Shown here one piece after another: positions 20,882 to 64,000 of a DNA stretch of 64,000 bases. Each line of letters opens with the position of its first letter. The stretch's first letter is position 1. This DNA is from Ilex aquifolium (lineage: Eukaryota > Streptophyta > Magnoliopsida > Aquifoliales > Aquifoliaceae). Where the stretch lies: contig OX637398.1 in the NCBI GenBank assembly GCA_951799425.1, forward strand, positions 15,720,270 to 15,784,269. Reading direction: 5' to 3'. Position numbers and translations under genes: made by a program. The notes under the pieces were generated by a model that worked only from the letters and a program-made list of their open reading frames with translations, was not told where the DNA came from and did not search any database.

Positions 20882-21214
20882 TGTTGAGAAATTGATTATT
20901 TTTAGATTGATTACTAAGTTAAATGGTTTAATTCCTGCAAATTTTTGCTGTCACATGATGCTTGAGTTCGACTTGAATGCTTGCAAATTTCTATTTTTTG
21001 AAAATTGGATCGGGTTAGGATCTGATCCTCAGCCCATGGGCGTCCAAATGGATTGTGAGTAGTTAGATTACAATAGAAGTCCATCTATCCATCTTTGAAG
21101 TTGAATTGAATTGGAAGCAAGAGTCCTACAAGGATTGGACTCAATAACTTGCCTTTATTTAATGGACTCATTACATTAGAAAGAGACACACAATTCTATA
21201 CCAGAAAACATCAC

Positions 21215-21275
<61 letters not shown>

Positions 21276-21493
21276 AATCTCTCTCTTCAAGATGCTCTCT
21301 CTAGGGAGCATCATCTTAATCCCTAGGATTTGGATTGTAAAAATCAAGTGGAGGACTCTAGTAGCCGCTCTACGGACGAAGGAAGAGATTGTGGTGATTT
21401 AAAGGCTAGTAACACAAGTAGAAGATTTGTCATCTCGAATTGAGTTTGAGATCAAGGTAACCCGAACACCCTTATGTGTTTATGTGATCTGCA
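20882..21493 (+). repeat. Copia copy 1 5' LTR
   Basis: It starts TGTTGAGAAATTG and ends GATCTGCA, 612 bp, and aligns with 62348-62896. It includes a long (TC)n run at about 21219-21272, which is much shorter in the other copy. Confidence 0.75.
21219..21272 (+). repeat. (TC)27 microsatellite in the Copia LTR
   Basis: A pure TC dinucleotide run of about 54 bp. The homologous place in copy 2 (about 62661-62675) holds only about seven TC units, so the run has expanded or contracted after the copies separated. Confidence 0.9.
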
Positions 21494-21497
21494 TTAA

Positions 21498-21506
21498 TAT
21501 CAGAGC
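21498..21506 (+). other. Copia copy 1 primer-binding site
   Basis: TATCAGAGC lies four bases after the LTR end. It matches the core of the initiator-tRNA-Met primer site TGGTATCAGAGC used by most Copia elements; the first bases have diverged. Confidence 0.75.
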
Positions 21507-21536
21507 TAACAAGAAAATCTTTATAGGATATTCATT

Positions 21537-22904
21537 GGTCAGCAGGTTATGTTCACAACACTTTTCATAAGTTTGGGAAACTAAGCCCTAAAGCTAACAA
21601 GAAAATATTTATAAGATTTTCTAAAAGCTTAAAAGGCTATATGATGCTTGGGGAACATCATGATAGAGGAATGACTGAAGTAGAGCCACAAGATGTTAAT
21701 TTCATTGAGAATGATTATCCAAGCGTAAGTGAAGCTAAGCAGAATCTTGGGTTTTATGAGATGCAGGAACTTGAGGGTTTCACGTATCCTCTCAACGAGG
21801 GTGGGGAAGTATTACCTCATCTTGTAATAGCCGAAGAGAATGGGAATGATCTTCCACCTAGTGGGAATACACCACCAGTGCTTCAAGATTCTCAGGTTCA
21901 TTGGACTATCATAGAATCATAACTCGTCATCGTTTTGAGATTGAGGGGGGAGACTTTCATGTGTACTCCATTGGAGCTAGATGAACTAGCTTCATATAAT
22001 GAAGCGCTCACTTCACCTACTTGTGGTGAATGGATGACTATTATGAAGAATGAAATGAGCTCAATGATCAAGAATCAAGTTTGATAGTTAGTTTATCTTC
22101 TGCCTGGGTGCAAGACCATTGTTAATAAATGGGTCTTAGAGATTAAGCGCAAGACAGATGAATCGATTGACAAGCATAATGCCCGGCTGTGGCGAAATGA
22201 TATACCTAAAAGGAGGGTATAGACAATGAAGAAACATTCTCCGCAGTGGCGAGGTTTACCTCTATTCATCTGATCCTAGCTATTGTTGCACAGATAGATT
22301 CGAAATTATTCCATATGGATGTTAAACAACATTTCTCAATGGAGAACTAGATCAAGAGATTTATATGACTCAACTAGAGGGTTTTGAAGTCAAGGGACAA
22401 AAGCACAAAGTTTGCCGCCTAAAACATTCTATTTATGGTCTCAAGCAATGATCTAGGCAATGGAACCTCAATTTTCATAATGCCATTACCTCTGTCGATT
22501 TTGGAATGATGTCTACTTCTGTCTATGCATTCATGCTCTAAGGAAGAGCTATTTCATGGTGTATTAAGAAACAGTCATGCATTGCCCAATCTACTATGGA
22601 GTTTGAATATATTACTTGTTTTTCAACAGTACATGAGGTAGTTTGGTTGAGGAGGAGATTCTTGCAGCATCTAGACATCACGCCCCATCGGCATGATGTT
22701 GTGCTGATTCATTATGATAGCATGGCTACTCTAGCATATGAGTTAAGATGGATGGTTGTCACCAAAGTGGTCCATTCTTTAAAATTTGTAGATTGTTTTC
22801 ATGCTTTTGTTACAGGATGGTCTCTAAATTATAATATACAATTACCTGCTCAAAGAGGATTATTGTGTATTATAATTTGGAGATGTCATGAAACATTGTG
22901 TTAG
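21537..22904 (+). pseudogene. Copia copy 1 pol relic (integrase C-term, partial RT, RNase H)
   Basis: The readable start is the integrase C-terminal region (SAGYVHNTFHKFGKLSPKA, then GYMMLGEHHDRGMTEVE and VNFIENDYPSVSE). The RT N-terminal part follows at about 22020 (CGEWMTIMKNEMSSM, NKWVLEIKRKTDESIDKHNA) and is broken by stops and frameshifts. At about 22545 the frame joins GRAISWCIKKQSCIAQSTME, the start of the Copia RNase H, and continues to 22904. The RT palm and YVDD are absent by deletion. The relic cannot encode a functional enzyme. Confidence 0.8.
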
Positions 22905-26100: not shown

Positions 26101-27180
26101 TGAAATTTGATGAGATAGTCAGTTCCCTTGGTTTTGTTGAGAATAAGATGGATCAATGCATATATCTTAAGGTCAGTGGTAGCAAATTTATTTTTCTTAT
26201 TCTTTGTTGATGATATTTTGCTTGTAAGTAATGATTTGAGCTTACTTCATGAGATTAAGCAATTGTTGAGCAAAAGATTTGACATGAAAGATCTTGGGGA
26301 AATATCTTTTGTGTTAGGCATTAAGATTCATCGGGATAGGAGTCGTGGATTGTTGGGACTTTCGCAAATGGCATATATAAATTGTGCACTTGAAAGATTT
26401 AATATGCATAATTGTAAGTTTGGGAATGTATCTGTTGTAAAAGGTGATAAATTCAATCTAAGTCAATGCCCCAAGAATGATCTTGAGGAGGATTCTATGA
26501 AGAATATATTTTATGCGACTGATGCTGGCAGTTTAATGTATGCACATGTTTGTACCAGGCCTGACATTGCTTTTACAGTTAGTGTTCTTGACAGATATCT
26601 TTCTAAACCAGGATTAGATCATTAGGTGGCAGCTAAGAAAGCTATGAGATACTAACAAAGAATTGTTTATAGGAGAGTTGATAGCTTTGAGGTGATTGGT
26701 TACTCATATTCAGATTTTGTTTGATGTCTGAATGATTTAAAATTCACTTCAAGATATATTTTCATATTAGCTGGAGGAGTAATAACATGGAAGAGTATTA
26801 AACAAACTCTCACAACTTCTTCCACTATGCAAGCTAAATTTGTAGGTTGTTATGGAGATGTAACGCAAGCTATATGACTAATGAATTTTATTTTAGGACT
26901 TATGTTTATTGATTCCATCTCTAGACCACTAACATTTTTTTGTGATAATAGTGCAGTTGTGTTCTTCTCAAAGAACAACAAAAATTCTAGTGAATCTAAA
27001 CATATGGAAATTAAATATCTTTATGTCAAGGATCTTGTGAAGAAAAGTGAAATTGTGATTGAACATATTAATACAGAATCAATGTTTGTTGATCCTTTAA
27101 CCAAGGGATTGAGACTTGCAATTTTGAAGAAACATGTTGACAACATGAACATTTTGGGGTCTTTTGATGTACTTGGTTAG
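23170..27180 (+). pseudogene. Second Copia element, decayed gag-pol
   Basis: The readable order is gag from about 23172 (VEVLTGSNYKRWK-like opening NIEVLTGSNYKRWKQ); a zinc knuckle at about 23910 (CYFCKKQDHKKSEC); protease at about 24057 (LWIDSGASVHV); integrase at 24592-25170 (HFITFIDDFSRYGYIY, VRSDCGGEYYG, MAERRNRTLKDM); RT from about 25700 (AIGYKWVFKIKMDSKGKIER, KARLVAKGYS) with the catalytic LFVDDILLVSND at about 26200; and RNase H to 27180 (STMQAKFVG, FFCDNSAVVFFSKN, HINTESMFVDPLTKGL). Dozens of stops and frameshifts break it. It differs from the copies at 20.9 and 62.3 kb and belongs to another Copia lineage. No LTR pair or primer site was found on either side. Confidence 0.85.
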
Positions 27181-35900: not shown

Positions 35901-36285
35901 TGATGGTGTAAATCTACGCGAATGAGCTATGGAACATGATTATTTGATATGAACGATCTGTGTAGAGCTAAGTACGGTGTCTGAGCTACAAGGCTCGTGC
36001 TTGATAGAGCAGGTTAATGCTTTGGGAACTGGGGAAAGAGGAGGATAACAAGATTATAGTGGTTCACCGGCCTGAGCTCGGCTAGTCCACTCTGCAACGG
36101 AGTCTCTGACTCCTCTCTTTCTTATTGATCAAGTTGAACGTGTTACAGTAGTATATTTTGGGTTTTAGAGTTTCTCCCTCCCTCTTTATAGCCTCATGCT
36201 TACCTCTAATTCAAAATCATCCCCTTTATTGAGGGGATTGTGCCCTATCTTCATCTATAATTTCGGAGTTACCTAAACTTCTATG
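35901..36285 (-). repeat. Tat-2 3' LTR, truncated
   Basis: It matches 45963-46347 at about 98 percent by eye and then stops matching after CTATG at about 36285. The remaining 290 bp of the full LTR are absent. Confidence 0.9.
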
Positions 36286-37296
36286 CCCCTTGAGGAGTCC
36301 ATCTCTTCAGCTCTTCAGGGAGCAGCTGTTGTAAGTGCTAGCACTTTCCCCCCTTTACTTGTTTTTATTTCGTGGTCTGGCGCAATTTACTGAACTTTAT
36401 ATTCTCAGGCTGCCCTCCATGCGAAAGATCTGCTGCACCGGGTTCGGTCTCAAGAGAGCTCTTTCAAGGTTCTGAAAACGTATAAGGTCAAGGTTTCTGA
36501 ATTATCCCTTGAGAATGAAGGCCTCAGGGCTCAGAACGAAGACCTCAGGGCTCAGGTGGAGAGCCTCAAAGAGCAAACGGTGAAGCAAGCCTCCGACCTC
36601 AAACACACATTAACCGTCAAGGTCAGAGCTGAGGAAGGGGAGAAGAAAGCTCGAGATGAGCTAAGGCTAGTTAAGGAGGACCTGCAGCTTAAGGTTGAGG
36701 CATGGTCCAAAGCTAGCCAAGAGGCTTTTGATGCCAAGAAAGAGCTCAGCCAGGTCAATCAAGATTATCTCGCCCTCAACGAGGCTAATGGCAAGCTCTG
36801 CGAGGAGCAGAAAGGTTTGGTCCAACAGAGGGACAAAAAGATTGCTGAGCTAAGAGATGAGGCCACCACATTGTGGGCTACTGGATGGCTTGCCTTTAAG
36901 CGCAAGGCTGTCAAAGCTTTCCCTGACCTTGACTTCAATTTCTCTATCCCCACCGAAGAAGAAATGGAAGAGTCTGTCTCTGATGATGAGGAGGATGTCT
37001 CGGTTCCCTCAGCTGCAGCCTTGAGTCAAGACATACCTGCCCCTGGGAGCTCTGGAGCTCTTATCGTGCTTCTTGAGCCTCCAACGGCGACTCCTGAGCT
37101 CATTGCTGCAGATCCTGCTGTTCCTGTTTCTGCACCATTTTCAGCTGACTTGGTGGCTGAAACCCTTGCTCAAGATCCGGAATCAACGGAAGCAGGGACC
37201 CAAGGCATTTCTGGAAGCTCTTCCCTTGCTTCTGTTGCTGAGGGCTCATCTACTGAGCTGCGAGATCCTTCAATTACTCCCCCTCCAGAAACTTAG
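36286..37296 (+). pseudogene. Tat-2 antisense ORF A, C-terminal half (coiled coil)
   Basis: Two exons, 36286-36330 (LEESISSALQG) and 36409-37296, are separated by a GT-AG intron with donor GTAAGTGC and acceptor TTCTCAG; the frame is kept in phase 0. They align with the last two exons of the Tat-3 aORF-A (LESSINSALYG, then a long coiled coil). Visible blocks are a heptad-rich, Glu/Lys-rich coiled coil over the first 180 residues or so, then GWLAFKRKAVKAFPDLDFNF, which matches Tat-3 GWLAFQGAAEEDYPELDFDF, then an acidic segment and a Pro/Ser/Ala-rich tail with SAPFSADLV. The upstream exons, including the gypsy-type domain and the start codon, were lost in the LTR deletion. Confidence 0.75.
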
Positions 37297-38287: not shown

Positions 38288-39356
38288 ATGGCTGCCCCTA
38301 CTTCTTCTCTGTCCAGGAACGGACTTCCTTCGGGATCGAATGGAAGTGGCATCACCGCTATTTGTCAGCTTCGAACTTAAACTCTTCTGATCTGGAAATC
38401 ATCAAGAAACGGTTCTTTCCTTATCTTGACTTGCCTTTGCGGGTTCCTACCGCGGACGAGCCCTGTAACTACCTTCCTCGAGGGAAAGTCTGCTTTTTCG
38501 AAGGTGCCATGGATATGGGACTTTGCCTTCCCATTCACCCTGCCATAGGGCGAGTTCTTGCCTACTATGGCCTATGCCCCTCTCGCCTTTCCCCACGAGG
38601 ATGGGCCACTTTGGTGAGCTTCTTCCTGTTCTGGCGCCTACATGGCGTTGGCAGGTTCCCCTATGTCTCCGAGTTTCTGTACTTCTTCGAGATAGAGGAA
38701 GATGATGCCCCCTGCTTCAGCTTCTTCCGTTGGAGGAATTTTAAATTACGCCCTTTGGTTCTAGGCTTTCCCCCCAATCCTGAAGGGTGGTCTAAACGTT
38801 TCTTTTTTGCTTCCGGGGAGTCTTGGCGGTCTCCTGAGGATCGTTGTCGTGAGGCTAGGATTCCTCGATCCTGGAAGAGCTTCTCTCGCATTAGTAAGTT
38901 TTAGCGAAGCTCTCTTGTGTATGTATTGTTCTTGAAGGTATATTCTTATTGCATTCTTGTTGCTCAGGTCCATCTGATGTGGATGTGCCAGAAAGGGTGA
39001 CCATTGACGAGATGCTGCTGGTGGAGTCTAAGTCTTACTCTGAATTGATGACAAGTGCAAACCTCTACTTGCTAGGGACCGAGGCTACTGAGTATGAGTT
39101 CTCCTTCGTTCCCTACTCTTCCTGGACTTCTTTTTCTGATTCTGACGAGGAAGATGATTCCGACGAGGAAGGGGACACTGGCGTGAGCTCAAAGAGGCGT
39201 AGGAGGGATGGCTCTTTTTCCCCTGACTCTCTGTCCACTATCTTCCTCTCCCCGGCAGGTCAGAAGCTTCTTGATTCACTTTATAAAGCTCAGCAAGAAA
39301 GAGACGAGTTGAAGGAAGAAGTGGCTGAGCTGAAGTCCCAGCTTAAGAAGGACTAG
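38288..39356 (+). pseudogene. Tat-2 antisense ORF B (gypsy-type domain protein)
   Basis: Exon 1 is 38288-38893 and exon 2 38968-39356, with GT-AG ends (donor GTAAGT, acceptor TGCTCAG). The product matches Tat-3 aORF-B throughout: FPYLDLPLRVPTADEPCNYL, FEGAMDMGLCLPIHPAIGR, YYGLCPSRLSPRGW, FFFASGESW. Exon 2 has an acidic run, then KRRRR, then a short leucine-zipper-like end (ERDELKEEVAELKSQLKKD). Compared with Tat-3, one base is missing near 38310, so the original ATG is out of frame with the conserved domain. The exons are otherwise open. The function of the family is unknown; the basic patch and zipper suggest a nuclear, dimerising protein, which is inference. Confidence 0.75.
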
Positions 39357-39839
39357 GAGCTCTTCCCCCTTGTACTTTCTTCTTTACTTGAGTGATGCCA
39401 AGCTATGACTTTCCTTATATTTTTTCTGAACACTTGTACTGTTGGATACTCTGAATACCAGATCTTTTATTTTTGAATATGCAATTCTTTATGAGCTGAC
39501 GGGCTCGTTCCGAACTCTGTAAGGTTATTTTAGCACGCTCTTCGTGTTCAGAACACGAACGTGGATGGAAAACAGAAGGTCATGTTTGCACTGCCCTTAG
39601 TTCCTGACTTATTCCACTGGTCGAACCACGAACATTGATGGAAAACAGAAGATCATGTTTGCACTGACCTCAATTCCCAACTGATTTCGTAGCTGATCCC
39701 TGCTGTATCAAATATATTGGGGTCTTCGAGTACGTAGGCAGTGCACAAGGACTACTAGTCGTGGAGGAAAGACTGTTGGTGTCTCCAAGAAGAGACCAGC
39801 TTTGAATTCTATGAGCTTAGAGGCTTGTTGCTTGTGTAC
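39357..39839. other. Tat-2 spacer with a 73-bp duplication
   Basis: A segment beginning ACGAACGTGGATGGAAAACA at 39555 recurs at 39628 (ACGAACATTGATGGAAAACA), a period of 73 bp. No coding region is seen. Confidence 0.7.
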
Positions 39840-40333
39840 GGGCTGAAGGGCTCGTCTTGTGTTTTATAAGCTGAGGAGCTTATCGTTTATTTATGAGCTG
39901 AAGAGCTCATCTTGTATTTTATAAGCTTAGAAGCTTATCGTTTATTTATGAGCTGAATAGCTCATCTTGTATTTTATAAGCTTAGAAGCTTATCGTTTAT
40001 TTATGAGCTGAAGAGCTCATCTTGTATTTTATAAGCTTAGAAGCTTATCTTTTATTTATGAGCTGAAGAGCTCATCTTGTATTTTTAAGCTTAGAAGCTT
40101 ATCTTTTATTTATGAGCTGAAGAGCTCATCTTGTATTTTATAAGCTTAGAAGCTTATCTTTTATTTATGAGCTGAAGAGCTCATCTTGTATTTTATAAGC
40201 TTAGAAGCTTATCGTTTATTTATGAGCTGAAGAGCTCATCTTGTATTTTATAAGCTTAGAAGCTTATCTTTTATTTATGAGCTGAAGAGCTCATCTTGTA
40301 TTTTATAAGCTTAGAAGCTTATCGTTAGCTGTA
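39840..40333. repeat. Tat-2 minisatellite: nine 55-bp hairpin monomers
   Basis: Unit starts are at 39840, 39895, 39950, 40005, 40060, 40114, 40169, 40224 and 40279; one unit is 54 bp. Each monomer contains GAGCTGAAGAGCTC (5-bp stem, 4-nt loop) and ATAAGCTTAGAAGCTTAT (8-bp stem, 2-nt loop). The array lies between aORF-B and the end of integrase, where Tat/Ogre elements are known to carry variable tandem repeats. Confidence 0.93.
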
Positions 40334-47488: not shown

Positions 47489-47997
47489 TGATGATGTAAT
47501 TCTACGTGCTCCACAGATATGCGAATGCTAGGTTTGCCCCTAGTGTACCCGATGTAAAACAACAAGATTATAGTGGTTCACCGAGCTTCAGAGCTCGGCT
47601 AATCCACTCTGCAATGGAGATATCGGCTCCCTTTTCTTTATTGATCGTTCAAGCTGATTTTTCTCTTATTTTGCTACTGGGGGTCTCCTCTCGTATTTAT
47701 GATGATCCCCTTAACCCTAGGGAATCCCCACGGAGATTGTACCCTCTAATCATGGGATTTCCCTAAGACGAAGGAGAGGATCTCGGGTTGGTTGAGAGTC
47801 CTATGCCTAAATTCACGGCTTGACTGTTACCCTGAAGGCGCCAGCTGTTTTCAAATGATTTCACCGCAACGTTAGTTACGAACTCTTTTAGACTAAGCTC
47901 GGGTCTAGGTCCTCTGAATTTAAGAGTTCTAGGCTGAGCTCCTTTACTGACCTACCGGGCTGAACTAAAACCTGGGATTAATTTTCAGACATCATCA
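47489..47997 (-). repeat. Tat-3 3' LTR
   Basis: 509 bp, TGATGATGTAATTC to AGACATCATCA. It is followed on the plus strand by GTTTGCCCCTAG, the complement of a short purine tract that should serve as polypurine primer. Confidence 0.95.
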
Positions 47998-48617: not shown

Positions 48618-51382
48618 ATGTCTGCTTCCTCTGGAGCCACTCCTTCCTCTATTTCTCTTTTAGGGGATCAATCAATCGAAGAGGATTCTGATCTAGGGGC
48701 TGTGGGTGAAGAGATTGATAATTTCCCTGGTGTTGACTCCGTCGACGTTAAGACCCCTACTGTTGAGCCCCCTTCTACGTCCTCCCCCGTAGTTCCGAAT
48801 AAAGGGAAGGGCAAAGTGAGTGGTGTAGGTGTTACTGCTCCTGAGGTGTCGTCTGCTTTTAGCTATGCCGAGAGTGTAGGCCGTAGTGAGGCTAGTCCTT
48901 CCCTTATGAAGATCTTGAGTGCTCGTTACGGTTTCCCTCCAGGGGTTAGATACTGGTGTCCTGATGAATATACCCCCTATATCTCTCAAGTTCATAAGAA
49001 AGTTTGTTACTTCGTTGCCGCTTTTGAAAATGGGCTGCGATTCCCACTCCATCCTTTTATAAAGGGCGTTCTCCAACATTTCAATGTCTGCCCCGCTCAG
49101 CTTCCTCCCAATTTCTGAGGGATTTTGGTGGGATTACTTGTTTTCTTCAAAATTCACAAGCTCGGGGTCTCCACCATTCCCTTGCTTACTCATTTTTTCA
49201 ACGTTAAGCACAATTCTTCTGAGGGCTTTCTGTATATTTCCAGACGTACTAAGGTTAAAGTGCTAATTTCCGACCCCCCGAGCTCCCACAAGCATTGGAA
49301 AAAATAGTTCTTTTTCGTGGAAGGCTCGCAGTGGGAATACGATCCGGCGGATAGGACCGACACTCTTCCGGTTCCTAGGGACTGGTCCAACCCGGACAAT
49401 CTGGGTGAGTTTTTTTTTTTTTATTGTGTCCAGGCTTCACGACCTTCTCTGATCTTACTTTTTTATTGGTTCCTAGGTAGGAGGCTTAAGCTTGATCCGA
49501 AGGATGAGGAAGTGTTACTGAAGTTAGAGGAGTGCCCTTCAGCGAGGTATTCTGAGCTTATCAGACCTCGTGTCCTTATAGCTCAGGGGCTTAGTCTTCC
49601 AGGGGTAGTTATAGAATCCCCTACTCCTCTTTCCGTCGAAGCTCCAATTCCTTTCTCTGTAGCTTCAACCGAGGTGTCAGGTGGTGGTTCTTCCCTTTAC
49701 CCGTTTCAGATCTTTTGAACTTCTACGGTTTATTGCGGCTGACGATGAATTTCCTTTTATGATTTTCAGGTTCTCCCTCAATGGAGCCCTCCTCCCAAGA
49801 AATTAAAGCCAAGATAGTTCAATTGAAGAAGGGCCAGAGTGGGAACAAGCGCAAGGTTGAGGTCACTTTAGATAGTAGGCCTGTTACCAGAGCTAAGTCA
49901 CATCCGCCGGGACTACCCCCGAAAAGCTCTGGCCCAGCTACCGGGGTCCTTGTAAAGAGACCGAGCTCCCTTGCTTCGGCTTCTGAGGGTCTTGCTCCCT
50001 CCTCGAGTTCCGATCAAGTTCCCCAGATCCCTTCCTCCGGAGGTATTCTGCTGGATTCTTGTAGAACCCGAGCTCAGGATCAGACTTTTCCCTCATCGAC
50101 CGAGGTCGAGAATGCTCTGGGATTAATCCCGCAAATTCAGACTATTAGCTCCCCTCTTGGACCATCTGAAAATCTCTCCCTAACAACTACGCTGAGTTCC
50201 AAACCGGAGAAGGAGAGGCGACTTAAAACAGAAGGAAGTGAGGACTCTCTCTTGGACAACATTGAACTTGCTGCCGGCGCTATAACTTCCATCATTCCTG
50301 ATTCCGACGTTATCAGGGCTGCCACTATGTCTTTAGAGAGTTCCATCAATTCAGCCCTTTATGGAGCCACTGCGGTATGCACATGTTGTTTCTCCTTTCG
50401 TTTCTATCTTCTGCCTGTTTTCTTATTCATTTCTGACCATACTTCCCTTCAGTTGGCTATTCATGTGAAGGGTTCATTGAGTCGGATCCACTCTATGGAG
50501 AGCTCGGTTAAAGCGTCCAAGGCCTGGGAGGCTAAAGCGGCTGAGCTGACCTTCGCTAATGATGAGCTCCAAGCTCAACTTCAGAGCCTCCGGGAACTTT
50601 CTGAAAATCAAGCCTCCGTTATCCAGAACATGGAGACAGAGAAAAAGAAGGCCCTAGAAAGAGAGATGAGGGGTAAGGATGAGCTGACAAAGGTCAAAGA
50701 AGAGCTCAAGCTTAAGACCGAGTCTTGGGTCAAGGTAAACCAAGAAAAATTTGAGGCGCTGGCCTCTGTTAATGAACTGAAAAGTCAACATAGTATCCTT
50801 GCAGAGGCGCACGATGTCATGCTTGCTGATCTTGAAACTCATAGAGCAATTATTAGGGAGAGGGATGCTCTGATCGCCAGGTTAAAGGACGATGTCGTTA
50901 CTAAATGGGCAAAAGGGTGGTTAGCTTTTCAAGGGGCCGCTGAGGAAGATTATCCCGAGCTGGACTTTGATTTTGACGTTCTAGCTGAGGAAAATGAGGG
51001 AGCTTCGGCTGAACAGGAGGCAGAGGTGCCTGGCCCATCTACTGTTCTTGAGGGGGCTCCTGCGGGCTCAGAGCTGCCGACTGGGGTTGAAGTTCAGAAT
51101 CTTCTACCCGCTGCACCTGTTTCTTCCTCGGATACCCTTGAAATTCCCCTGCCCCCTGCTCCTGTCGACCGGCCTGCCTCGGCTCCTTTCTCTGCTGATC
51201 TGGTAGTGAGGGCTTTAACCGAAGCTGACGTTTCTGTTCCCTTAGCTATGCCAGGGACTTTGTCCACTTCCTTTCTAGAAGCTCCATCTGCCATTCCACC
51301 CACGAATTCGCCTGTAGATCCAGCCAATACTTCTACCGCAGACCTGCCAGTGACTTCTCTTCCTGCCCCTTCCAAATCATAG
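48618..51382 (+). pseudogene. Tat-3 antisense ORF A (gypsy-type domain plus long coiled coil)
   Basis: The start is the ATG at 48618 (MSASSGATPSSISL). Proposed exons are 48618-49404, about 49480-49690, 49771-50374 and 50453-51382; the last intron has donor GTATGC and acceptor CCTTCAG, and its 78 bp are also open in frame. The first exon has an acidic, Ser-rich leader and then the shared domain: VCYFVAAFENGLRFPLHPFI, LQHFNVCPAQLPPNF, then (after a TGA at 49116-49118 in the place of a tryptophan) GILVGLLVFFKIHKLGVS, and (after a TAG at 49305-49307) FFFVEGSQWEYD. Later exons give basic linkers, then a heptad-rich coiled coil (ELTFANDELQAQLQSLRELS onward), GWLAFQGAAEEDYPELDFDF, and a Pro/Ser/Ala-rich tail. 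Two nonsense codons mark it as decayed. Its function is unknown. Confidence 0.75.
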
Positions 51383-51816
51383 GGGTTTTTACTATTTTCC
51401 CTGTACTTTTTAAATACTTTCAATCTGTTGGCGTACATGCTGCTCATTTTAAACGTTGAACAAGGCCTTTTGCTTTTGTCTCTGCCTCCTCTGTGTTTGA
51501 CATGCTCTTGACACCTGATCTGCCCTGACTGAACTGCTAGCTATTGCGCTCTTCTTTATGAGCAAGAGTATTCGCCGTGCGTTATAGAAGTCTTTTTATG
51601 AGCTCGTGAGGTATAGAGGTCTTTTTATGAGCCAAAGGTCTTCTCACAAGCTAACCGTCAGAGCCGATTTCACCGAAGGCTGCAAGGCTCTTTGTATCAG
51701 CCAGTTGATTCATCTCGAGCTATTTGGATGAGCTGCTTGTCGTCATAAGCTGCTAGGCCCCTGGTCTTGTACCCCTTGCTCCAAGAAGTACTTTTTACGA
51801 ACTAAAATATTCATCG
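51383..51816. other. Tat-3 spacer after aORF-A
   Basis: T-rich sequence containing degenerate copies of ATGAGCT/AGGTCTT words that grade into the array that follows. No coding region. Confidence 0.6.
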
Positions 51817-52390
51817 TGAGCTGAAGAGCTCTTTTCATGAATTCAGAGAGCTCATCTCTTTTCATGAATTTAGGGAATTCATCGTGAGCTACAGAGTTCT
51901 TTTGAATTTAGGTAATCCAGCACGAGCTACAGGGCTCTTTTGAATTTAGATAATCCAGCATGAGCTACTGGGCTCTTTTGAATTTAGATAATCCAGCATG
52001 AGCTATTGGGCTCTTTTCATGAATTATAAAATTCATCGTGAGCTACGGAGCTCTTTCCATGAATTATAAAATTCATCGCGAGCTACGGAGCTCTCTTCAT
52101 GAATTTTATAACAACTCATCGCGAGCTACAGAGCTCTTTTCATGAATTTTATAACAACTCATCGCGAGCTATAGAGCTCTTTTCATGAATTTTATAACAA
52201 CTCATCGCGAGCTATAGAGCTCTTTTCATGAATTTTATAACAACTCATCGCGAGCTATAGAGCTCTTTTCATGAATTATAAAATTCATCGTGAGCTACGG
52301 AGCTCTCTTAATGAATTATAAAATTCATCATGAGCTACAGAGCTCTTTTCATGAATTATAAAATTCATCATGAGCTACGGAGCTCTTTTG
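51817..52390. repeat. Tat-3 minisatellite: about 14 hairpin monomers of 40-43 bp
   Basis: Monomers begin GAGCT(A/G).. and are spaced mostly 40 or 43 bp apart (for example starts at 52040, 52080, 52123, 52166, 52209). Each holds GAGCTACGGAGCTC or a variant (5-bp stem) and either ATGAATTATAAAATTCAT (7-bp stem) or a longer form with TTTTATAACAACTCAT. It sits between aORF-A and aORF-B. Confidence 0.92.
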
Positions 52391-52714
52391 GCTGTATCGA
52401 ATTGCTTCCCTTATACGAGCACCGAGATGGTTGTCACTTCGAAAAAAGAGGGACCGAACGCGGTCCTCTCTTCGAATAACTTGACCCATAGTCGGTTCGC
52501 TTTTCCCCATTTATCATCGCCTTACTTGCTAGTAACCGCCATCATTTTTCAGGAAACCGAAAAGGCAGTTAACCTTCTTCCTTTCCTATTCCTTCTTTCT
52601 TGATTCTTTCAAAAGGCTCTACTCCCCCATCGTCTCTAATTTCAAAAAAATTTCAAGAGACTTCACTTTCCTTTCGAATCTGAAGGTTTACCTTTTACCT
52701 TTTCTTTGATCCCA

Positions 52715-53807
52715 ATGGCCGCCCCCATTTCTTCTCTGTTCCAGGAGCGTATTTCTTTCGGTATTGAATGGGAGTGGCACTCTCTCTACTTGACTCCGTC
52801 AACGGTGTCTCCTTCTGACTTGGAAGGCATCCAAAAAAAAAAATTTCCTTATCTTGATTTACCTTTACGTGCCCCTACTGCAGACGAGCCGTGCAACTTC
52901 CTACCAAGGGGGGAGGTTTGTCTTTTTGAAGGTGCCCTGGAGTTTGGCCTTTGTCTTCCCATACACCCTTCCATAGGGCGTATCTTGGTGTACTATGGTC
53001 TGTGTCCGTCCCGTCTTTCTCCTAGTGGTTGGGAGGCCATGGTCAGCTTCTTTTTGTTCTGGCACCTAAATGGTAATGATAGGTTCCCCTTTGTCTCCGA
53101 ATTCCTTTACTTTTTCGAGATTGAGGAGGATGATATCCCCTGTTTCAGTTACTTTCGTTGGAGGCACTTTAACATTTCCCTTTTGGTCATGGGTCTTCCC
53201 CTCAACCCTGAGGGATGGTCACAGCGCTTCTTCTTTGTTTCCGGGGATTCCTGGCGGTCTCCCGAGCTGCGCTGTCCCAGTACTAGGGTCCCAAGGTCCT
53301 GGAAGAGCTTCTCTGGCATTAGTAAGATCAATCCTGAGTTCTTTTCAGCCTCTTTTGGCCTAAGATTGATTCTCATTATGCCTTTCTATTTCAGGTCCTC
53401 CTGAGCTGAATTTGCCTGAGACGCCCAACATTGAAGAACTACTGGTCGCTGAGCCTATGAATTTTTCAGATCTGATGACGAAAGAGAACCTTCATATGCT
53501 TAGTGCTGAAGCCGCTGAATACGAATTCTCCTTAACCCTATTCTCGCCTTGGGCTTCATTTTCCGAGTCTGGTGACGAAGTGGATGCTGATGAAGAAGAA
53601 GACTCTAGGGGGGAGGACGCAGGTACTTCTTCCAGGAAACGTAAGAGGCCTCCTCATTTGCTTTCAAATACCTGTCTTACCCCGGCTGGTGGCAAACTAC
53701 TGGCAGTGCTCCACGAGGTTGAGCAAGAGAGGGACGCACTGAAGGAGGAGAATGCCCGCCTCAAGGACGAGGTGGCTGAGCTGAGATCCATTATCAAGAG
53801 GAATTAG
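52715..53807 (+). CDS. Tat-3 antisense ORF B (gypsy-type domain protein), intact
   Basis: Exon 1 is 52715-53321 and exon 2 53395-53807, with GT-AG ends (donor GTAAGATC, acceptor TATTTCAG). Spliced length is 1020 nt, 339 residues, with no stop. The ATG at 52715 is chosen because MAAPISSLFQERISFGIEWE leads directly into the conserved domain and the homologous ATG exists in Tat-2. Domain signature: FPYLDLPLRAPTADEPCNFL, FEGALEFGLCLPIHPSIGR, YYGLCPSRLSPSGW, GWSQRFFFVSGDSW. Exon 2 adds an acidic stretch, the basic patch SRKRKRPP, and a final heptad segment (VEQERDALKEENARLKDEV). It resembles the plant family called transposase (putative) gypsy type. No catalytic residues are apparent. It reads against gag-pol and ends 670 bp from the convergent integrase stop. 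Confidence 0.8.
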
Positions 53808-54479
53808 GAAACTTCTTTTATCGCAGTTTGCTGTGATGCTTTCCGAATGTTTTCTTCGATCAGCTGAACCCCTTTTTTTTTTTTTTTAAAACTCTGTGGG
53901 CCTATTGTTGGTTTTCTTGCCTGTTGCCTTTCACCTCGTGATTGCTTATTTTGATCTGATGAGCTTACTTCCCATTAGCTTTGGAGATCCCTGAGCAGAA
54001 TAGCGGTATCTCTCGCTCAATTATGAGCTTCGGTGTTCCGCTGGGCTGTAGAGCTCATCCGAGCTGTTGAAGCTCAACAAATGGTTTCATAAGTTTTAGA
54101 GCTCGGAAAATGATCACATAAACTTAGAAGCTCACCCGAGCTACTAGAGCTCGGTTACAGAGATGGGCTTGTGAGCTCCGTTGTAGGACTACCCGATCAT
54201 TCCTTAGGTTTAGACTTTGAATTGAATGTATGTGTCTGGGCTACAAGGCTTATCCAAGCTACAGGGCTTGTTGAGCCTTTATGAGTTTTCGCGCTCATCT
54301 GACGCTTGTAATAAACCAGAACTCCAAGAAACATGTAATGAACAGTTACCACAAATAGTCACAGATTCCACAATAAAAAGTGGCACTATCAGCAGGAGGT
54401 CTTGGCCCATAAGTTTTGAAAAGTTTCCCAAGCTTCGAAATATTACTTTTATTGAGAATAATTTTATTACAAAGAAAGC
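53808..54479. other. Tat-3 spacer between aORF-B and integrase
   Basis: The spacer contains a T17 run at 53871-53887 and a loose series of GAGCT/AGCTC word pairs between 53998 and 54300 (GCTGTAGAGCTCATCCGAGC, CTACTAGAGCTCGG and others). Transcripts from both strands would end here. Confidence 0.65.
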
Positions 54480-57400
54480 TTACTGATAGAACCTTTTAAG
54501 GTGTTCAGCATTCCATAAGTGGGGTAGGACCTTCCCTTCTCCCGTTTGCAACTCGTAATTTCCAGGTCTGATTATTCTTGAGACAATGAATGGGCCTTCC
54601 CAATTTGGGCCCAATTTCTCGTGGGTGGGGTCCTTTCTTGCGAGCAAGAGCTTCCTGAGCACAAGATCTCCTACTCGGAAGCTCCTAGGTCGGACCTTTC
54701 TGTCATAGTACCTGGTTGTCTTCCTTTGGTAACACTGAATGCGTTGAAGAGCTGTCTCCCTTTTTTCCTCTAGGAGATCGAGGTTTAGCAAGAGTGACTC
54801 ATCATTGAGCTCGGCCTCCATCAACTCCATTCTGGGCGATGGTAATCCTATTTCCACAGGAGACACGACCTCCGTTCCGAAAGCCAACGCGAACGGGGTT
54901 TCTTGAGTTGCTGACCTGGGGGTTGTCTGGTATGCCCAGATCACCTCGGGGATATATTCAACCCATTTCCCTTTTAGTGATTCGAGCTTGGTCTTCAACG
55001 CTGACTTGATTGTTCTGATTGTCACCTCTGCTTGCCCATTGGATTACGGATGTGCTGGAGCTGAGAAATAATTCTTTATTCCAAGGTCTGCGCAGAACTT
55101 CCTGAACTTCGGGTTGTCGAACTGTTTTCCATTGTCAGAAACAATAGCTCTGGGTATCCCGAACCTGCAGATGATTGACTTCCACGTGAAGTTCTGAATC
55201 TTCTGCTCCGTAATTGTTGCTAAGGGTTCTATTTTCGCCCATTTGGTGAAGTAATCTACCCCGATGATGGCGTACTTGCATTGCCCTACCCCGGTGGGAA
55301 GAGGTCCCAGAATATCCAACCCCCATTGTTGGAAAGGCCAAGGACTTATTACTGACGATAGAAATTCTGGTGGACAGTGCGAGATGTTGGCATGTACTTG
55401 GCACGTTTTGCATTTTCTTATCAGATCGGAGGCATCCTTCAACATCGTGGGCCAGTAGTATCCCTGCCTCAGGACTTTTCCTGCTAGCGCTCGAGCTCCT
55501 ATGTGATTCCCACAAATTCCTTCATGGACTTCCCTAAGTACATAGCTTGCATCTTCCTCTCCCACACATTTAAGGAGAGGTACCGAAAATCCCCTTTTAT
55601 ACAAGTTTCCCTGTAGAATGGTGAATCTGGCGGACCTTACTCTTACCTTTGTCGCCTCTTTCTGCTCTCTTGGCAAAGTTCTGTTCTGCAGATATTCTCT
55701 AACGGGGTCCATCCAAGTTGGAGAGGAAAAGACTAGGAACACTTCAACCTCCTCAGTCTTCACTGATGGCTCTGCTAGATGCTCTACCGGTATCAATATG
55801 TCGAGTTTTTCTTGGGAAGCAGTTGCTAATCTAGCCAATGTGTCTGCTCGGGAATTTTCTGACCTGGGGACGTGTACTATTTTTACCTGCACAAATTTCT
55901 GGATTAATTCCTGTACTTTTCTGAGGTAAAGTACCATCTTCTCTCCCTTGGCTTCATAAGACCCCTCTATTTGCTTTACCACAAGCTGGAAGTCACTGAA
56001 GATTTCAAGCTGCTCTGCCTCCATTGAACGGGCGAGATTTAGACCTGCTATGACGGCCTCATATTCTGCCTCGTTATTAGAAGCTTTAAAGCCGAACCTG
56101 AGCGCATACTCAACATCTATCTCTTCAGGTGAAGTTAAGATCAATCCAGCACCACTACCTTGAGCGTTGGCCGCTCCATCCACTGAAAGTCTCCAGGTCG
56201 GGAGGTCAGGTATCATCTGCGCTGCTTCCAAGGGTGTTTTCGTCGTGAATTCTGCGATGAAGTCGGCCAGTATCTGCCCCTTGATGGCAGTTCTTGGCTT
56301 ATACCTGATATCAAATTCGCTGAGCTCTATAGCCCATTTTACCAACCTTCCTGAAGATTCTGGCTTATGCAGCACTTGTTTCATCGGCTGATCTGTTGGG
56401 ATCTCAATGGTATGAGCCTGGAAATAAGGTCTGAGTCTTCTAGCTGTTGTGACCAAGGCTAACACAAGTTTTTCCATCTTTGGATATCTCTCATCTGCTC
56501 CCCTCAGAGCTCTGCTGCAGTAGTAGACTGGTTGCTGGGCTCTGTCTCGCTCCCTAACCAGCGCTGCGCTGGTTGAGAAATCTGAAACTGCTAGGTATAC
56601 AGTAAGTACTTCCCCTTCTAGAGGGCTGACTAGAACGGGTGGGGAGCTTAGATAATTCTTCAATGCCTCGAATGCTTCTTCGCACTGTGTATCCCATGAG
56701 AAAGCCTTCTTTAGAATTTGAAAGAAAGGTCGGCATTTATCACTTGATCTCGACACAAAGCGATTCAAGGCAGCTATTCTCCCAGTCAGACGTTGTATCT
56801 CCTTTGTATTAGAGGGCGGCTGTATATCCAGAATTGCTTTGACTTTTTCTGGATTGGCCTCTATTCCCCTGCTGTTGACTATGAAACCTAGAAATTTCCC
56901 GGCTGAAACTCCGAAGGCGCACTTGGCTGGGTTGAGTTTCATCTTGTATTCCTTTAGAACCTGAAAGGACTCTGCCAAATGTTGGACGTGGAGTTCTGCC
57001 TTCAGCGATTTGACCAACATGTCATCGATGTAAACTTCCATGGTGGCCCCGATTTGTTTTTGGAACATTCTGTTCACTAAGCGCTGATATGTTGCTCCAG
57101 CGTTCTTCAATCCGAAAGGCATGACCTGGTAGCAGTAGGTCCCCTGTTCGGTTATGAATGAGGTCTTCTCTCGATCACTGGGGTCCATCCTTATTTGATT
57201 ATATCCCGAAAAGGCATCCATGAAGCTGAGGAGCTCGTGTCCGGCAGTAGCATCCACGATCAAGTCTATCCGAGGTAAGGGGAAACTATCTTTGGGGCAG
57301 GCCCGATTGAGATCAGTAAAGTCTATACAGAGGCGCCACTTGCCGTTGGTTTTCTTTACGAGGACGACGTTAGCAAGCCACACCGGATAATCTACTTCCC

Positions 57401-57700
57401 TGATGGCCTTAGCAAGGAGAAGTTTGCTGACTTCCTCGTTGATGGCATTTTGTCGCCCTGGGGCGAAACTCCTCCTTTTCTGCTTAATCGGCTTGCAGTC
57501 GGGATTTACACTAAGCTTATGTGTGATGACTGTTGAGTCGATTCCCTCCATATCCTCTTGCTTCCAGGCAAATACTTCTGTGTTCTGCTTTAGGAAATGG
57601 ATAAGAAAATCTTTTATCTCGCAGCTCAGCTGGGACCCCACATAGACCAGATGTTCGGGCTTATCGTCTAGCTGTATAGGTTCTAACTCTTACGATGGGA
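54480..57700 (-). pseudogene. Tat-3 pol: RT, RNase H, second RNase H, integrase
   Basis: A nearly continuous frame runs from 57641 to 55044 and on to 54480. It has RT with ATYQRLVNRMFQKQIGATME and VYIDDML at about 57019-57040; a gypsy RNase H; a second, archaeal-like RNase H (RLSVDGAANAQGSG, NNEAEYEA, FSDFQLVVKQ, with F at the position where Tat-2 has S); and integrase with an H-H-C-C region near 55450-55560 and DYFTKW, VSDNGKQFD, NGQAEVTIR, ending AEHLKRFYQ. Nonsense codons separate protease from RT (about 57688-57690) and interrupt integrase just before SNGQAEV (55041-55043, where Tat-2 has Gln). Confidence 0.92.
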
Positions 57701-59957
57701 TTGGTCGGGTTTCCAGCTCGTCTCTCATGTCCAATTCATCCAGTTGGATGTTTTCAACCTCTTTTGCCCTTACCGAGGTCATATAACACTCTCTGGCTAC
57801 ACGCTGGTCTCCTCGGACCATTCCCACCCCGTTTTCTATTGGAAACTTGACCACTAAATGGTAGGCAGATGGAATAGCTCTTATGGAGTTGAGCGAATGT
57901 CTCCCAAGCAGAACATTGTACGCAGAAGGTGCGTCGACCACTAGGAATCTCACTGTCGTAGTTGTCTGGCATGGCGTATCTCCTAAGGTGAGTACTAGTT
58001 GGATTGCCCCCAAGGGGAGCACTCTTTCTCCTGAGAATCCCAACAGGTGGTTATTCACAGGCTCTAGCTTTTCTCTCCCAATCCCCATTTTATCGAAGGC
58101 GGTAGCAAAAATGACATCTGCTGAGCTGCCGTTATCAACTAAGACTCGATGGACGGTCCGGTTAGCTATCAACGCCTTTATCACCAAGGGGTCATCATGA
58201 GGATACTGACGCCCCTCCAAGTCTGAATCCGAAAAAGTGATGACTGTGTCCAAGCGTGGTGCCTTGGTCACGACATTCACTTCGAGAGCTTCTGCGGCTC
58301 TGATCCTTCGTAGGTGGGCTTTTCTTGCTGAGCTAGACTCTCCTCCTCCGGCGAAACCTCCAGAAATTACCCTGATTTCTCCCAAAGGTTGCTGATGTTG
58401 CGGTGGCGCCTGCGGTAGAGGTGGCGGAGGGGGAAGAGCTCGGTTTTGATTTTCATGAGCCAAAAAATGGCGCAACTGGCCTCGTTGGATCAAAAACTCG
58501 ATCTCCTTTTTTAGCTGAATGCAGTCATCGGTGTGGTGTCCGTGATCTCGGTGGTAGTCACAGTACTTGTAGGGGTCCCTCTTTGCGGGGTCTGCCTTCA
58601 TCCGTGGTGGCCACCTTAAAAATTTTTCATTCTGGACCTCGTACAAGACTTGGGATACTGTAGCAGTTAGTGGAGTGAAAGGCCGAGGTGCGTATCTAGG
58701 CTGTAGTTCGGGCTGGGGAGGTCCTAGGCGGTCCCTCACGTTTCCCCTTCTCTTTGGGGAAGAATCTCTGTCTCTCCTTGGAGACTTTCCTTGTTCTCTT
58801 TCCTTCCGGGGACTTCTGTCTCTTTTCTTTTCTTCCTTTCCTCTCTCCTTCCGTGAGGAGGTGTTTCCTACTTTGGATAGGAGTGCTTCTTCACCATTGA
58901 TATACTTTTCTGCTTTGGCTAGCACTTCTGCCATGCTAGCTTGAGGATTCTTTGATACAGAAAACATCAAATCTTTTGACTGCACCCCCAATCCCGTAAT
59001 GAAGGCGGTGATGGCAAATTTTTCATCTGGGATGTCTACTTTCAGAGATTCGGAGTTAAATCTCTGCAATAGGAGTGCAGGTTCTCGTCAGGTTTTTGTT
59101 TTACATTTAGCAAATGGTAACTTGGTTTTTTGTAGATCCGAGCCCCTATGAAATGAGACACGAAAGCAATGGAGAGTTCCTTGAAGGAAGAGATCGATGC
59201 CGGGGGAAGTCTATGGAACCATGCTAAAGCTGTTCCTTTCAACGTAATGGCGAAAGCCCTGCACCGCACCGGATCCTCCATGCAATTCCATCTGATTCTT
59301 GTAGGTATTGAGGTGGTTTACAGGATCATTCGTCCCATCGAAGACCTCCATCTGAGGTGGTCTGAACTTCGGTGGTAGAGGGAAGTGCAGTACTCCGGCG
59401 GTAAATGGGGATTCCGTTTGCTGCACCAGGGTGTCCATGGTCACTGGAGTTTTGGCTTTTACTGCCTCCCTCATATGGCTGAGCTCTTGTTGAATGTCTT
59501 TGAAGCGATGTTCCCAATATTGCTTCATTCTCTCCTGCGAAAAAGGGGGAAAGTTGTTTCTTTCAACTCCTTCGTTCCGGCTTTGTGCTTCTTCCTCCAT
59601 TCTTCTTCTAGGCTGCAGATGAGGTGCCTGACTGTTCTCTCTCCCCTCATCCGCTTCTCTGAAGGGGTCATGGTTCTGCTGCTCTCTTCGGGGGGGGGGG
59701 GGGTCGTTCTGGTTTTGTTGAGGAACTTGTAAGAGCCTCGTGAGCTCTTCGTTTTGCTGGAGTAATCGTTGATTAACCAGACGCAGGGCGTCCAGTTCGT
59801 TGTTTGGGGGCGGATTCATCGTGGGTGGATCGTTCCCGGTGGCGGGTATAAAATCACGAAGGTCTTCTGTCTGTCTCCTATCGACGGCTTCTAGCGGATT
59901 CTGCACCCTTGGGGGACTCCTCTGATTCTTGCTCGTGTTACGTGTAGAAACCATCAA
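57690..59957 (-). pseudogene. Tat-3 gag and protease
   Basis: gag starts at about 59954-59957 (MVSTRNTSKNQRS). The capsid-like core (FDGTNDPVNHLNTYKNQMEL) is broken by a 5-nt deletion near 59277 relative to Tat-2 and by a 1-nt loss near 59066. From 59069 the frame is open through the basic region, the zinc knuckle ([15 protein letters not shown]) near 58545-58590, and the protease with [14 protein letters not shown] near 58115-58150, ending at a stop at 57690-57692. The gag leader is Pro/Gln/Asn-rich and includes a homopolymeric G/C run at 59690-59702. Confidence 0.9.
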
Positions 59958-60018: not shown

Positions 60019-60526
60019 TGATGGTGTAATTCTACGTGCTCCACAGATATGCGAATGCTAGGTTTGCCCCTAGTGTACCCGATGTAAAACAACAAGATTA
60101 TAGTGGTTCACCGAGCTTCAGAGCTCGGCTAATCCACTCTGCAATGGAGATTCGGCTCCCTTTTCTTTATTGATCGTTCAAGCTGATTTTTCTCTTATTT
60201 TGCTACTGGGGGTCTCCTCTCGTATTTATGATGATCCTCTTAACCCTAGGGAATCCCCACGGAGATTGTACCCTCTAATCATGGGATTTCCCTAAGACGA
60301 AGGAGAGGATCTCGGGTTGGTTGAGAGTCCTATGCCTAAAGTCACGGCTTGACTGTTACCCTGAAGGCGCCAGCTGTTTTCAAATGATTTCACCGCAACG
60401 TTAGTTACGAACTCTTTTAGACTAAGCTCGGGTTTGGGTCCTCTGAATTTAAGAGTTCTAGGCTGAGCTCCTTTACTGACCTACCGGGCTGAACTAAAAC
60501 CTGAGATTAATTTTCAGACATCATCA
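60019..60526 (-). repeat. Tat-3 5' LTR
   Basis: 508 bp with about 8 differences from the 3' LTR. On the minus strand CATAAATACG at 60221-60230 is TATA-like, and AATAAA (complement of 60167-60172) lies about 55 bp downstream, suggesting a short R region. Confidence 0.94.
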
Positions 60527-62380: not shown

Positions 62381-62900
62381 AATTCCTGCAAATTGGATCA
62401 GGTTAGGATCCGATCCTTAACCCATGGGGCGTCCAAATGAATTATGAGTACTTAGATTACAATAGAAGTCCATCTACACATCTTTGAAGTTGAATAGAAT
62501 TGGAAGCAAGAGTCCTATAAGGATTAGACTCAATAACTCGCCTTTATTTTATTTTATTTTATTTTTTTTTTTTTGGAACCTCGACGGTGCGAGGGAGATT
62601 TATTAATGTACTCATTACATAAGAAAGAGACACACAATTCTATACCAAAAAATTTCACATCCTCTCTCTCTCTCTCAATAATCTCTCTCTTCAAGAAGCT
62701 CTCTCTAGGGTCATCATCTTAATCCCTAGGATTTGGATCGTAAAAATCAAGTGGAGGACTCTAGTAGCCGCTCTACGGACGAAGGAAGAGATCGTGGTGA
62801 TTTAAAGGCTCGTAACACATGTAGAAGATTCGTCATCTCAACTTGAGTTTGAGATCAAGGTAACCCGAACACCCTTATGTGTTTATGTGATCTGCATTAA

Positions 62901-62909
62901 TATCAGAGC
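62901..62909 (+). other. Copia copy 2 primer-binding site
   Basis: TATCAGAGC, the core of the initiator tRNA-Met primer site, four bases after the LTR end. Confidence 0.75.
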
Positions 62910-62939
62910 TAACAAGAAAATCTTTATAGGATATTCATT

Positions 62940-64000
62940 GGTCAGCAGGTTATGTTCACAACACTTTTCATAAGTTTGGGAAACTAAGCCCTAAAGCTAA
63001 CAAGAAAATCTTTATAAGATATTCTGAAAGCTTAAAAGGCTATATGATGTTTGGGGAACATCATGATAGAGGAATGACTGAAGTAGAGCCACAAGATGTT
63101 AATTTCATTGAGAATGATTATCCAAGCGTAAGTGAAGCTAAACAGAATCTTGGGTTTTATGAGATGCAGGAACTTGAGGGTTTCCCATATCCTCTCGGCG
63201 AGGGTGGGGAAGTATTACCTCATCTTGTAATAGCCGAAGAGAATGGGAGTGATCTTCCACCTAGTGGGAGTACACCACCAGTGCTTCAAGATTCTCAAGT
63301 TCATTGGAGTATCATACAATCATCCCTCGTCGTCGTTTTGAGATTGAGATGGGAGACTTTCATGTGTACTCCATTGGAGCTAGATGAACTAGCTTCATAT
63401 AATGAAGCGTTCACTTCACCTACTTGTGGTGAATGGATGACTATTATGAAGAATGAAATGAGCTCAATGGTCAAGAATCAAGTTTGGTAGTTAGTTTATC
63501 TTCTGCCTGGGTGCAAGACCATTGTTAATAAATGGGTCTTAGAGATTAAGCACAAGACAGATGAATAGATTGACAAGCATAATGCCCGGCTTGTGGCAAA
63601 ATGATATACCTAAAAGGAGGGTATAGACTATGAAAAAACATTCTCCCCAATGGTGAGGTTTGCCTCTATTCATCTGATCCTAGCTATTGTTGCACAGATG
63701 GATTTGAAATTATTCCATATGGATGTTAAACAACATTTCTAAGTGGAGAAATAGATCAAGAGATTTATATGACTCAACCAAAGGGTTTTGAAGTCCAGGG
63801 ACAAGAGCACAAAGTTTGCCGCCTAAAACATTCTATTTATGGTCTCAAGCAATGATCTAGGCAATGGAACCTCAATTTTCATAATGCCACTACCTATGTC
63901 GATTTTGGAATGATGTCTACTTCTGGCTATGCATTCATGCTCTAAGGAAGAGCTATTTCATGGTGTATCAAGAAACAGTCATGCATTGCCCTATCTACTA
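62940..64000 (+). pseudogene. Copia copy 2 pol relic
   Basis: An open frame runs at 63044-63490: integrase C-terminus (GYMMFGEHHDRGMTEVE) into RT N-terminus (TCGEWMTIMKNEMSSMVKNQV), ending at a TAG where a codon for the next RT residue is expected. Beyond it the RT is frameshifted. At about 63930 it jumps to RNase H (GRAISWCIKKQSCIA) with the YVDD region missing, exactly as in copy 1. It is less decayed than copy 1, which has an extra stop after WTIIES. Confidence 0.8.

Follow-up and report, generated by a model that had tools for sequence, protein, structure and literature searches.

Tat-3, a long terminal repeat (LTR) retrotransposon in the genome of Ilex aquifolium, carries two genes, here called A and B, on the strand opposite to gag-pol, both of which encode a domain of the TRP28 family (Pfam Transposase_28, PF04195). 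The element lies in a stretch of 64,000 nucleotides (C8:15720270-15784269; hereafter the window), from an 800-Mb genome. Comparison with its relatives leads us to propose, tentatively, that the region between pol and the 3' LTR is an antisense cassette made up of two old TRP28 paralogues and usually one array of 14-bp palindromes, and that the A and B proteins may regulate their own element by binding; we regard this as a serious possibility that falls somewhat short of a probable one. The array mostly lies just before pol, and in Tat-3 it lies between A and B.

The two LTRs of Tat-3 are 98.4% identical over 512 columns of a self-alignment and are flanked on either side by ATAAT, a 5-bp target-site duplication (TSD); at this level of LTR identity, Tat-3 is a young LTR retrotransposon. 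By its sequence organisation, with an antisense TRP28 open reading frame (ORF) between pol and the 3' LTR together with a 5-bp TSD, it is Retand-like (Tat lineage, Ty3/gypsy). An earlier annotation made from the DNA letters without database searches (the sequence-only reading) had placed two plus-strand genes opposite to gag-pol within one Tat element, and both ORFs do lie between the Tat-3 LTRs with their ATAAT flanks. The antisense region spans positions 48618-53807, within the following set of features.

47489..47997, minus strand: Tat-3 LTR, 3' relative to gag-pol (self-alignment, ends, ATAAT TSD)
48618..51382, plus strand: gene A (ORFs, Pfam match of 28.8 bits, pieces found by hidden Markov model (HMM), donor site; acceptor by eye)
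51856..52389, no strand: tandem array between A and B, unit about 40 bp (Tandem Repeats Finder (TRF) and palindrome scans)
52715..53321, plus strand: gene B exon 1, TRP28 domain, open (Pfam match of 32.2 bits; donor GT at 53322)
53322..53394, plus strand: predicted intron of gene B, phase 1 (donor by script, acceptor by eye)
53395..53807, plus strand: gene B exon 2, with an acidic run, an RKRKR patch and a short leucine zipper (ORF, weak HALZ and bZIP matches, substitution rates)
53808..54479, no strand: spacer between B and pol, lacking the AAGCT/GAGCT palindrome array present here in 6 of 7 B-bearing elements examined
54480..59957, minus strand: gag-pol (ORFs; used as queries)
60019..60526, minus strand: second Tat-3 LTR, 5' relative to gag-pol (self-alignment, ends, ATAAT TSD)

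For PF04195 the Pfam gathering cut-off is 26.2 bits, and it is exceeded by the A ORF, with 28.8 bits, as well as by the B ORF, with 32.2 bits, in keeping with the claim of the sequence-only reading that the two genes contain the same domain. While B is open in the Tat-3 copy, the domain of A is broken there by two in-frame stops (the ORF stops at 49118 and the next open segment is 49119-49304), and for this reason the A profile was built from relatives only. A profile-profile comparison (hhalign) of six B rows against ten such A rows aligned the two with a probability of 99.3% (E 1.3e-20, 32% identity, 133 columns). Of the three motif segments by which the domain had first been recognised, beginning with GL, CP and W, the second and third run over stop codons in the window's copy of A, because these two stops cut its domain. 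Beyond the domain, A continues into a charged coiled-coil-like stretch followed by an acidic, Pro/Ser-rich C-terminus, and B into an acidic run, the RKRKR patch and a short zipper. A sequence search of the PDB gave no persuasive match: the best one for the B profile had an E of 0.034, and the A profile had none at E <=1. Scans of viral and genome contig collections found no relatives.

The position of the first intron adds to the case for homology. A script located the Trp of the motif at the end of the domain and then the first GT-like donor after it. The predicted donor lies 19 nt past this Trp codon, in phase 1, in 21 A genes and in 10 B rows (9 distinct places); seven more matches to the A motif fall in unrelated frames or loci. 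Among 11 rows of a third TRP28 type (T), the same donor was found in 6 by the script and in 4 more by eye, where the script had picked an earlier GT, and the T gene of the element Tat-1 deviates (nt 25). In Tat-3, the predicted A intron spans 49405-49476 and that of B lies at the codon equivalent to A's first intron, the acceptor sites of both being read by eye. The spliced structure that had been proposed for both genes agrees with these predicted introns. Profile comparison and the common intron position and phase support the homology of A and B; the failure to align that the sequence-only reading had named as a refutation did not occur. Since the place and phase of the first intron coincide, the two most likely descend from a single intron-bearing gene.

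To what extent does this pair occur outside Tat-3? We examined 20 loci of 10 kb, chosen for variety rather than at random among the 150 best Pfam matches. Sixteen of these carry A and four carry the T type only. A and B occur together in 8 of the 16 A-bearing loci (L009, L011, L012, L022, L024, L025, L026 and L027, with B exon 1 partly deleted in L025), and the other eight carry A only: L013-L019, in which pol follows A, and L010, whose assignment rests on a 28-aa fragment of the pol end. Eight further A matches comprise seven with A only and one that is ambiguous (L052), and a more divergent element, L050, likewise has A only. Relatives are arranged as A plus B, as A only, or as B with a truncated A.

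Genome-wide searches with B exon 1 and with the first 166 residues of A each returned the best 150 of more than 6000 loose candidates, and the counts that follow refer to the matches listed. Among 52 B rows matching at 86% identity or more, 48 have a same-strand A upstream, at a median offset of 3988 bp (range 2.6-5.1 kb), so that the idea of a single freak element was rejected. Conversely, 48 of 56 Tat-3-like A rows (56 being counted of the 57 with at least 88% identity) have a B downstream. In 38 of these 56 rows the match is stop-free and the A frame has 350 aa or more, enough to cover the domain; 4 rows have the 256-aa frame of the window copy. Both matches are stop-free in 37 of the 48 pairs, although the A match does not reach as far as the first stop of the window copy; 29 pairs combine stop-free matches with an A frame of at least 350 aa. 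By eye, at least 13 more pairs were seen in another subfamily. The paired arrangement, which the sequence-only reading had singled out as potentially new, is thus common in this genome (at least 48 Tat-3-like pairs), and no published description of it was found in the literature searched. The survey of single against paired copies that this reading had suggested found both, with A alone in 8 of the 16 loci.

If A and B were decaying passengers without function, broken copies should be no surprise, and the two stops in the window's A, together with stops in 8 of the 52 Tat-3-like B exon-1 matches, could be read in this way. We calculated ratios of nonsynonymous to synonymous substitution (dN/dS) by the Nei-Gojobori method for open copies only (10 for A, 6 for B exon 1, 7 for B exon 2 and 3 for T), excluding stop-bearing copies from exon 1, such as A of L011, L013 and L019 and B of L022 and L026. 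For pairs with a synonymous distance (dS) above 0.1, dN/dS was 0.10-0.24 in A exon 1; it was 0.09-0.19 in B exon 1 and 0.11-0.36 in B exon 2, where the ratio of one pair is undefined. T gave 0.18-0.60. The very close A pair of L009 and L024 gave 1.37 at a dS of 0.011, which is uninformative. Ratios near 0.1-0.2 between subfamilies for both A and B, and the many open copies that have both genes, argue against decay, and we consider functionless passengers very improbable; the idea was rejected because the pattern of substitutions already speaks against it. Among open copies both genes show purifying selection and seem to have been kept as proteins.

The separation of A and B appears to be old. 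In a tree of 47 TRP28 domains, from which the near-copies L001-L008 and short pieces were excluded, A (24), B (10) and T (12) each form one clade (supports 98/94, 100/99 and 100/99) and the domain of L035 branches on the A side (98/89); the program warned of long branches meeting between B and T. The L035 domain represents a fourth TRP28 type, found in pieces at L049:2157-2750, where the surrounding 8.5 kb contain no RARYT palindromes (the class of palindrome described below). The dS of B between Tat-3 and other subfamilies is 1.3-1.7. Because A and B form separate clades, with L035 on the A side and so large a synonymous distance for B between subfamilies, we judge the A/B split to be old on phylogenetic grounds. 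The sequence-only reading had suggested an internal tandem duplication followed by divergence. Of this, the homology stands (hhalign, intron), while duplication inside the element is not demonstrated, and a recent one is unlikely given the separate old clades and the B distances; the Tat-3 regions upstream of A and upstream of B show no DNA similarity to each other at E 1e-10.

Instead of arising by duplication, B (or A) may have been acquired through recombination with another TRP28-bearing Retand element, which would be compatible with a regulatory role, and we hold this to be quite possible without favouring it outright. It would fit the deep separation of the A and B clades, the position of L035, and the presence of A alone in the more divergent L050. 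Parts of these elements also seem to recombine: the A of L017, an A-only element, is nearest to the A of the pairs L022 and L027 (dS 0.23-0.24, among 10 A rows), while its pol groups with those of A-only elements, a mismatch that suggests recombination inside the antisense region. No donor was found, however, that has B alone and an unrelated pol, and only 4 of the 52 Tat-3-like B copies listed lack an A among the matches listed, where theirs may rank too low to appear. In a tree built from the C-terminal part of pol, with 27 rows and 446 columns, five pairs group with Tat-2, a second element of the window (96/98), 14 A-only elements group together (86/85), and Tat-3 joins L050, a long branch (93/94). 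Since L050 is a long branch and the approximately unbiased (AU) test does not reject placing every B-bearing element in a single clade (p-AU 0.156), the order of gain and loss of B is not firm.

The tandem repeats next to these genes consist largely of alternating 14-bp palindromes with 5-bp arms and a 4-bp spacer. The array between A and B in Tat-3 alternates GAGCT-N4-AGCTC with GAATT-N4-AATTC in a 40-bp unit; arrays between B and pol combine GAGCT with AAGCT in steps of about 27 bp (Tat-2, L009, L022, L025, L026 and L027); and A-only elements have GAACT together with a near-palindromic GAGCT...GGCTC after A, in a 41-bp unit. The A-only element L056 has the GAATT form, and L050 a decayed GAGYT form (by eye). 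Counting as an array any spacer with at least 5 perfect sites, we found arrays in 1 of 10 A-B spacers (that of Tat-3), 6 of 7 B-pol spacers and 8 of 8 A-pol spacers. Each Tat-3 LTR in addition has one palindrome with 7-bp arms, CCGAGCT-TCAG-AGCTCGG (at 47581-47598 and from 60113).

Across 25 spacers, the pattern RARYT-N4-complement occurs at 186 sites; 100 dinucleotide shuffles gave 0.74 on average and never more than 3. Once duplicates were removed, 51 of 469 left arms were matched at a spacer of 4, while no other spacer length between 0 and 15 gave more than 6 matches. Where both arms are of the RARYT form, 51 of 89 match, compared with 19.5 in shuffled pairings (maximum 32 in 2000 shuffles), as if the arms change together. 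In gag-pol, 5-4-5 palindromes of any sequence are only slightly more frequent than in mononucleotide shuffles (6 in Tat-3, 8 in Tat-2 and 8 in Tat-1, against 4.6, 4.5 and 5.2); 22 kb outside have 54, against 38.5.

Such arrays could be mutational by-products: hairpins would favour slippage and template switching during reverse transcription, quasi-palindrome correction would match the arms in the absence of selection, and the function of A and B would be unrelated to them. Tandem arrays in Retand elements are common and variable in copy number, according to the accessible part of PMC11963269; T elements keep TRP28 while RARYT palindromes are absent from 5 of 5 of their spacers; and in 9 of 10 A-B spacers the number of perfect sites is 3 or fewer. 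A spacer of exactly 4 and the same few arms nonetheless recur in different subfamilies across unit lengths of 40, 41 and 55 bp, and we judge this origin unlikely, while giving it appreciable weight.

It is also conceivable that the arrays act as RNA, with 5-bp stems and 4-nt loops in genomic or antisense RNA serving packaging, dimerisation or RNA binding by A and B. A 5-bp stem with a 4-nt loop has tetraloop geometry, and on either strand none of 200 shuffles folds as well as a 259-nt stretch of the Tat-2 array itself (z -6.9 on the minus and -4.2 on the plus strand). Against this, palindromes fold on either strand by construction, so that folding is not specific to RNA, and a hand count of mismatched arms gave no clear one-strand G-U bias once a repeated GAGTT/AAGTT set was put aside. 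We consider action as RNA improbable.

Under the regulatory reading, A and B would be produced from spliced antisense mRNAs, enter the nucleus and dimerise, and the dimers would bind the palindromes of the element that encodes them. They would thereby regulate transcription or counter silencing in a sequence-specific manner, as VANC proteins do on VANDAL tandem repeats. A division of labour between the two could then allow A-only lineages to persist. Several results weigh against such a role. Each element has roughly a single array rather than one for each gene, as follows from the distribution of arrays among the three kinds of spacer, and the five T spacers examined lack such palindromes. 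The RARYT-N4 pattern was picked after the arrays had been inspected; tandem copies are non-independent, and raw site counts are inflated by amplification; and when distinct arm combinations are counted once per spacer, 35 of 78 match, a figure that has no control. A scan of the Tat-2 LTR found no palindrome of the kind seen in the Tat-3 LTRs, and when the 1 kb upstream of A was scanned in the 16 A-bearing 10-kb loci, a GAGCT palindrome turned up in L022 alone. As for the proteins, the coiled coil and the B tail described by the sequence-only reading are present as a charged stretch in A and as acidic run, RKRKR and short zipper in B, but heptad scores of both tails, while above the shuffle mean, are no higher than the top score among 200 shuffles; and an AlphaFold model of B, with only window rows as alignment, had a mean predicted local distance difference test (pLDDT) score of 43 and was unusable. 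The stronger version of this reading, a two-protein, antisense-encoded control or anti-silencing system on a fast-evolving palindromic docking array, and thus an LTR-retrotransposon counterpart of VANC, seems to us rather unlikely as it stands. Two selected paralogues and site-like arrays turn the TRP28 question into one that biochemistry can address, namely whether the domain binds the palindrome arms. They also suggest a way in which plant retrotransposons of high copy number could govern or protect their expression.

Beyond Tat-3, the window contains Tat-2 and Tat-1. In Tat-2, the start and TRP28 domain of A have been lost, while B exon 1 is still open:

36280..37296, plus strand: Tat-2 A remnant, coiled-coil part only, from the LTR edge (tblastn, 36% over 354 aa; LTR end)
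38314..39356, plus strand: Tat-2 gene B, with open exon 1 (73% to Tat-3 B) and exon 2
39802..40326, no strand: Tat-2 B-pol array, a 55-bp tandem of alternating AAGCT/GAGCT palindromes (TRF, palindrome scan)

Tat-1 has a single TRP28 gene of type T at 2546-3230, in two frames and with no palindromic array. A direct repeat of 1.6 kb, about 90% identical and 41 kb apart (20999-22596 and 62387-64000, the window end), brackets Tat-2 and Tat-3. An older element may have received the Tat insertions, the repeat being either its pair of LTRs or two copies of it; at 26128-26625 there is an ORF that resembles a reverse transcriptase, of copia type by eye.

The titles and abstracts that we searched contain no account of two TRP28 paralogues per element or of palindromic arrays, although the 2011 paper by Steinbauerova, which reportedly concerns extra ORFs, could hold pairs. 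Antisense TRP28 ORFs as such are already published for Retand, as the sequence-only reading had anticipated for Tat elements (PMC11963269, PMC7264820); the A/B pair and the palindromes are without description in the literature searched. In the parts of these sources that were accessible, almost every Retand cluster is reported to have antisense TRP28 ORFs, and many of them tandem repeats (PMC11963269; PMC7264820; PMC6317226), TRP28 is predicted to bind DNA (PMC11963269), and the antisense genes are given as being of unknown function (PMC7264820, PMC11963269). Vicient (2025) counted 57 TRP28 ORFs among 104 antisense ORFs in 63 clusters, scored in the accessible text as present or absent per cluster (PMC11963269). 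The words palindrome, paralogue, intron and hairpin were looked for in that text, and no passage on the pair or the arrays came up; Figure 3 and the supplements could hold pairs.

Compared with known systems, Tat-3 has in common with the Retand elements of PMC11963269 its gag-pol, a long region between pol and the 3' LTR, an antisense TRP28 ORF and tandem repeats in that region; paired TRP28 paralogues, introns, selection and palindromic repeats are not described in the accessible text, Figure 3 and supplements excepted. Maize Grande gene23, rice RIRE2 and Silene Retand likewise have an antisense gene between pol and the 3' LTR, and the gene23 product is nuclear; unlike in Tat-3, no paralogue pair is mentioned for these in the accessible part of PMC7264820. 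B resembles bZIP transcription factors in having a basic patch and a leucine zipper, but its basic patch lies apart from the zipper and the Pfam scores fall below cut-off (bZIP_2 13.9 against 22.3 bits, bZIP_1 12.7 against 27.6, with HALZ weak too). VANDAL elements are DNA transposons, whereas Tat-3 is an LTR retrotransposon. A further difference is that the word palindrome is absent from the accessible text of PMC5735166. According to the parts of these papers at hand, VANC proteins bind motifs in tandem repeats (PMC5735166), and these repeats change fast (PMC5735166, PMC10398659). In both systems, then, the likeness would lie in a protein encoded by the element itself and in short motifs arrayed as fast-evolving tandem repeats in noncoding DNA (PMC5735166, PMC10398659).

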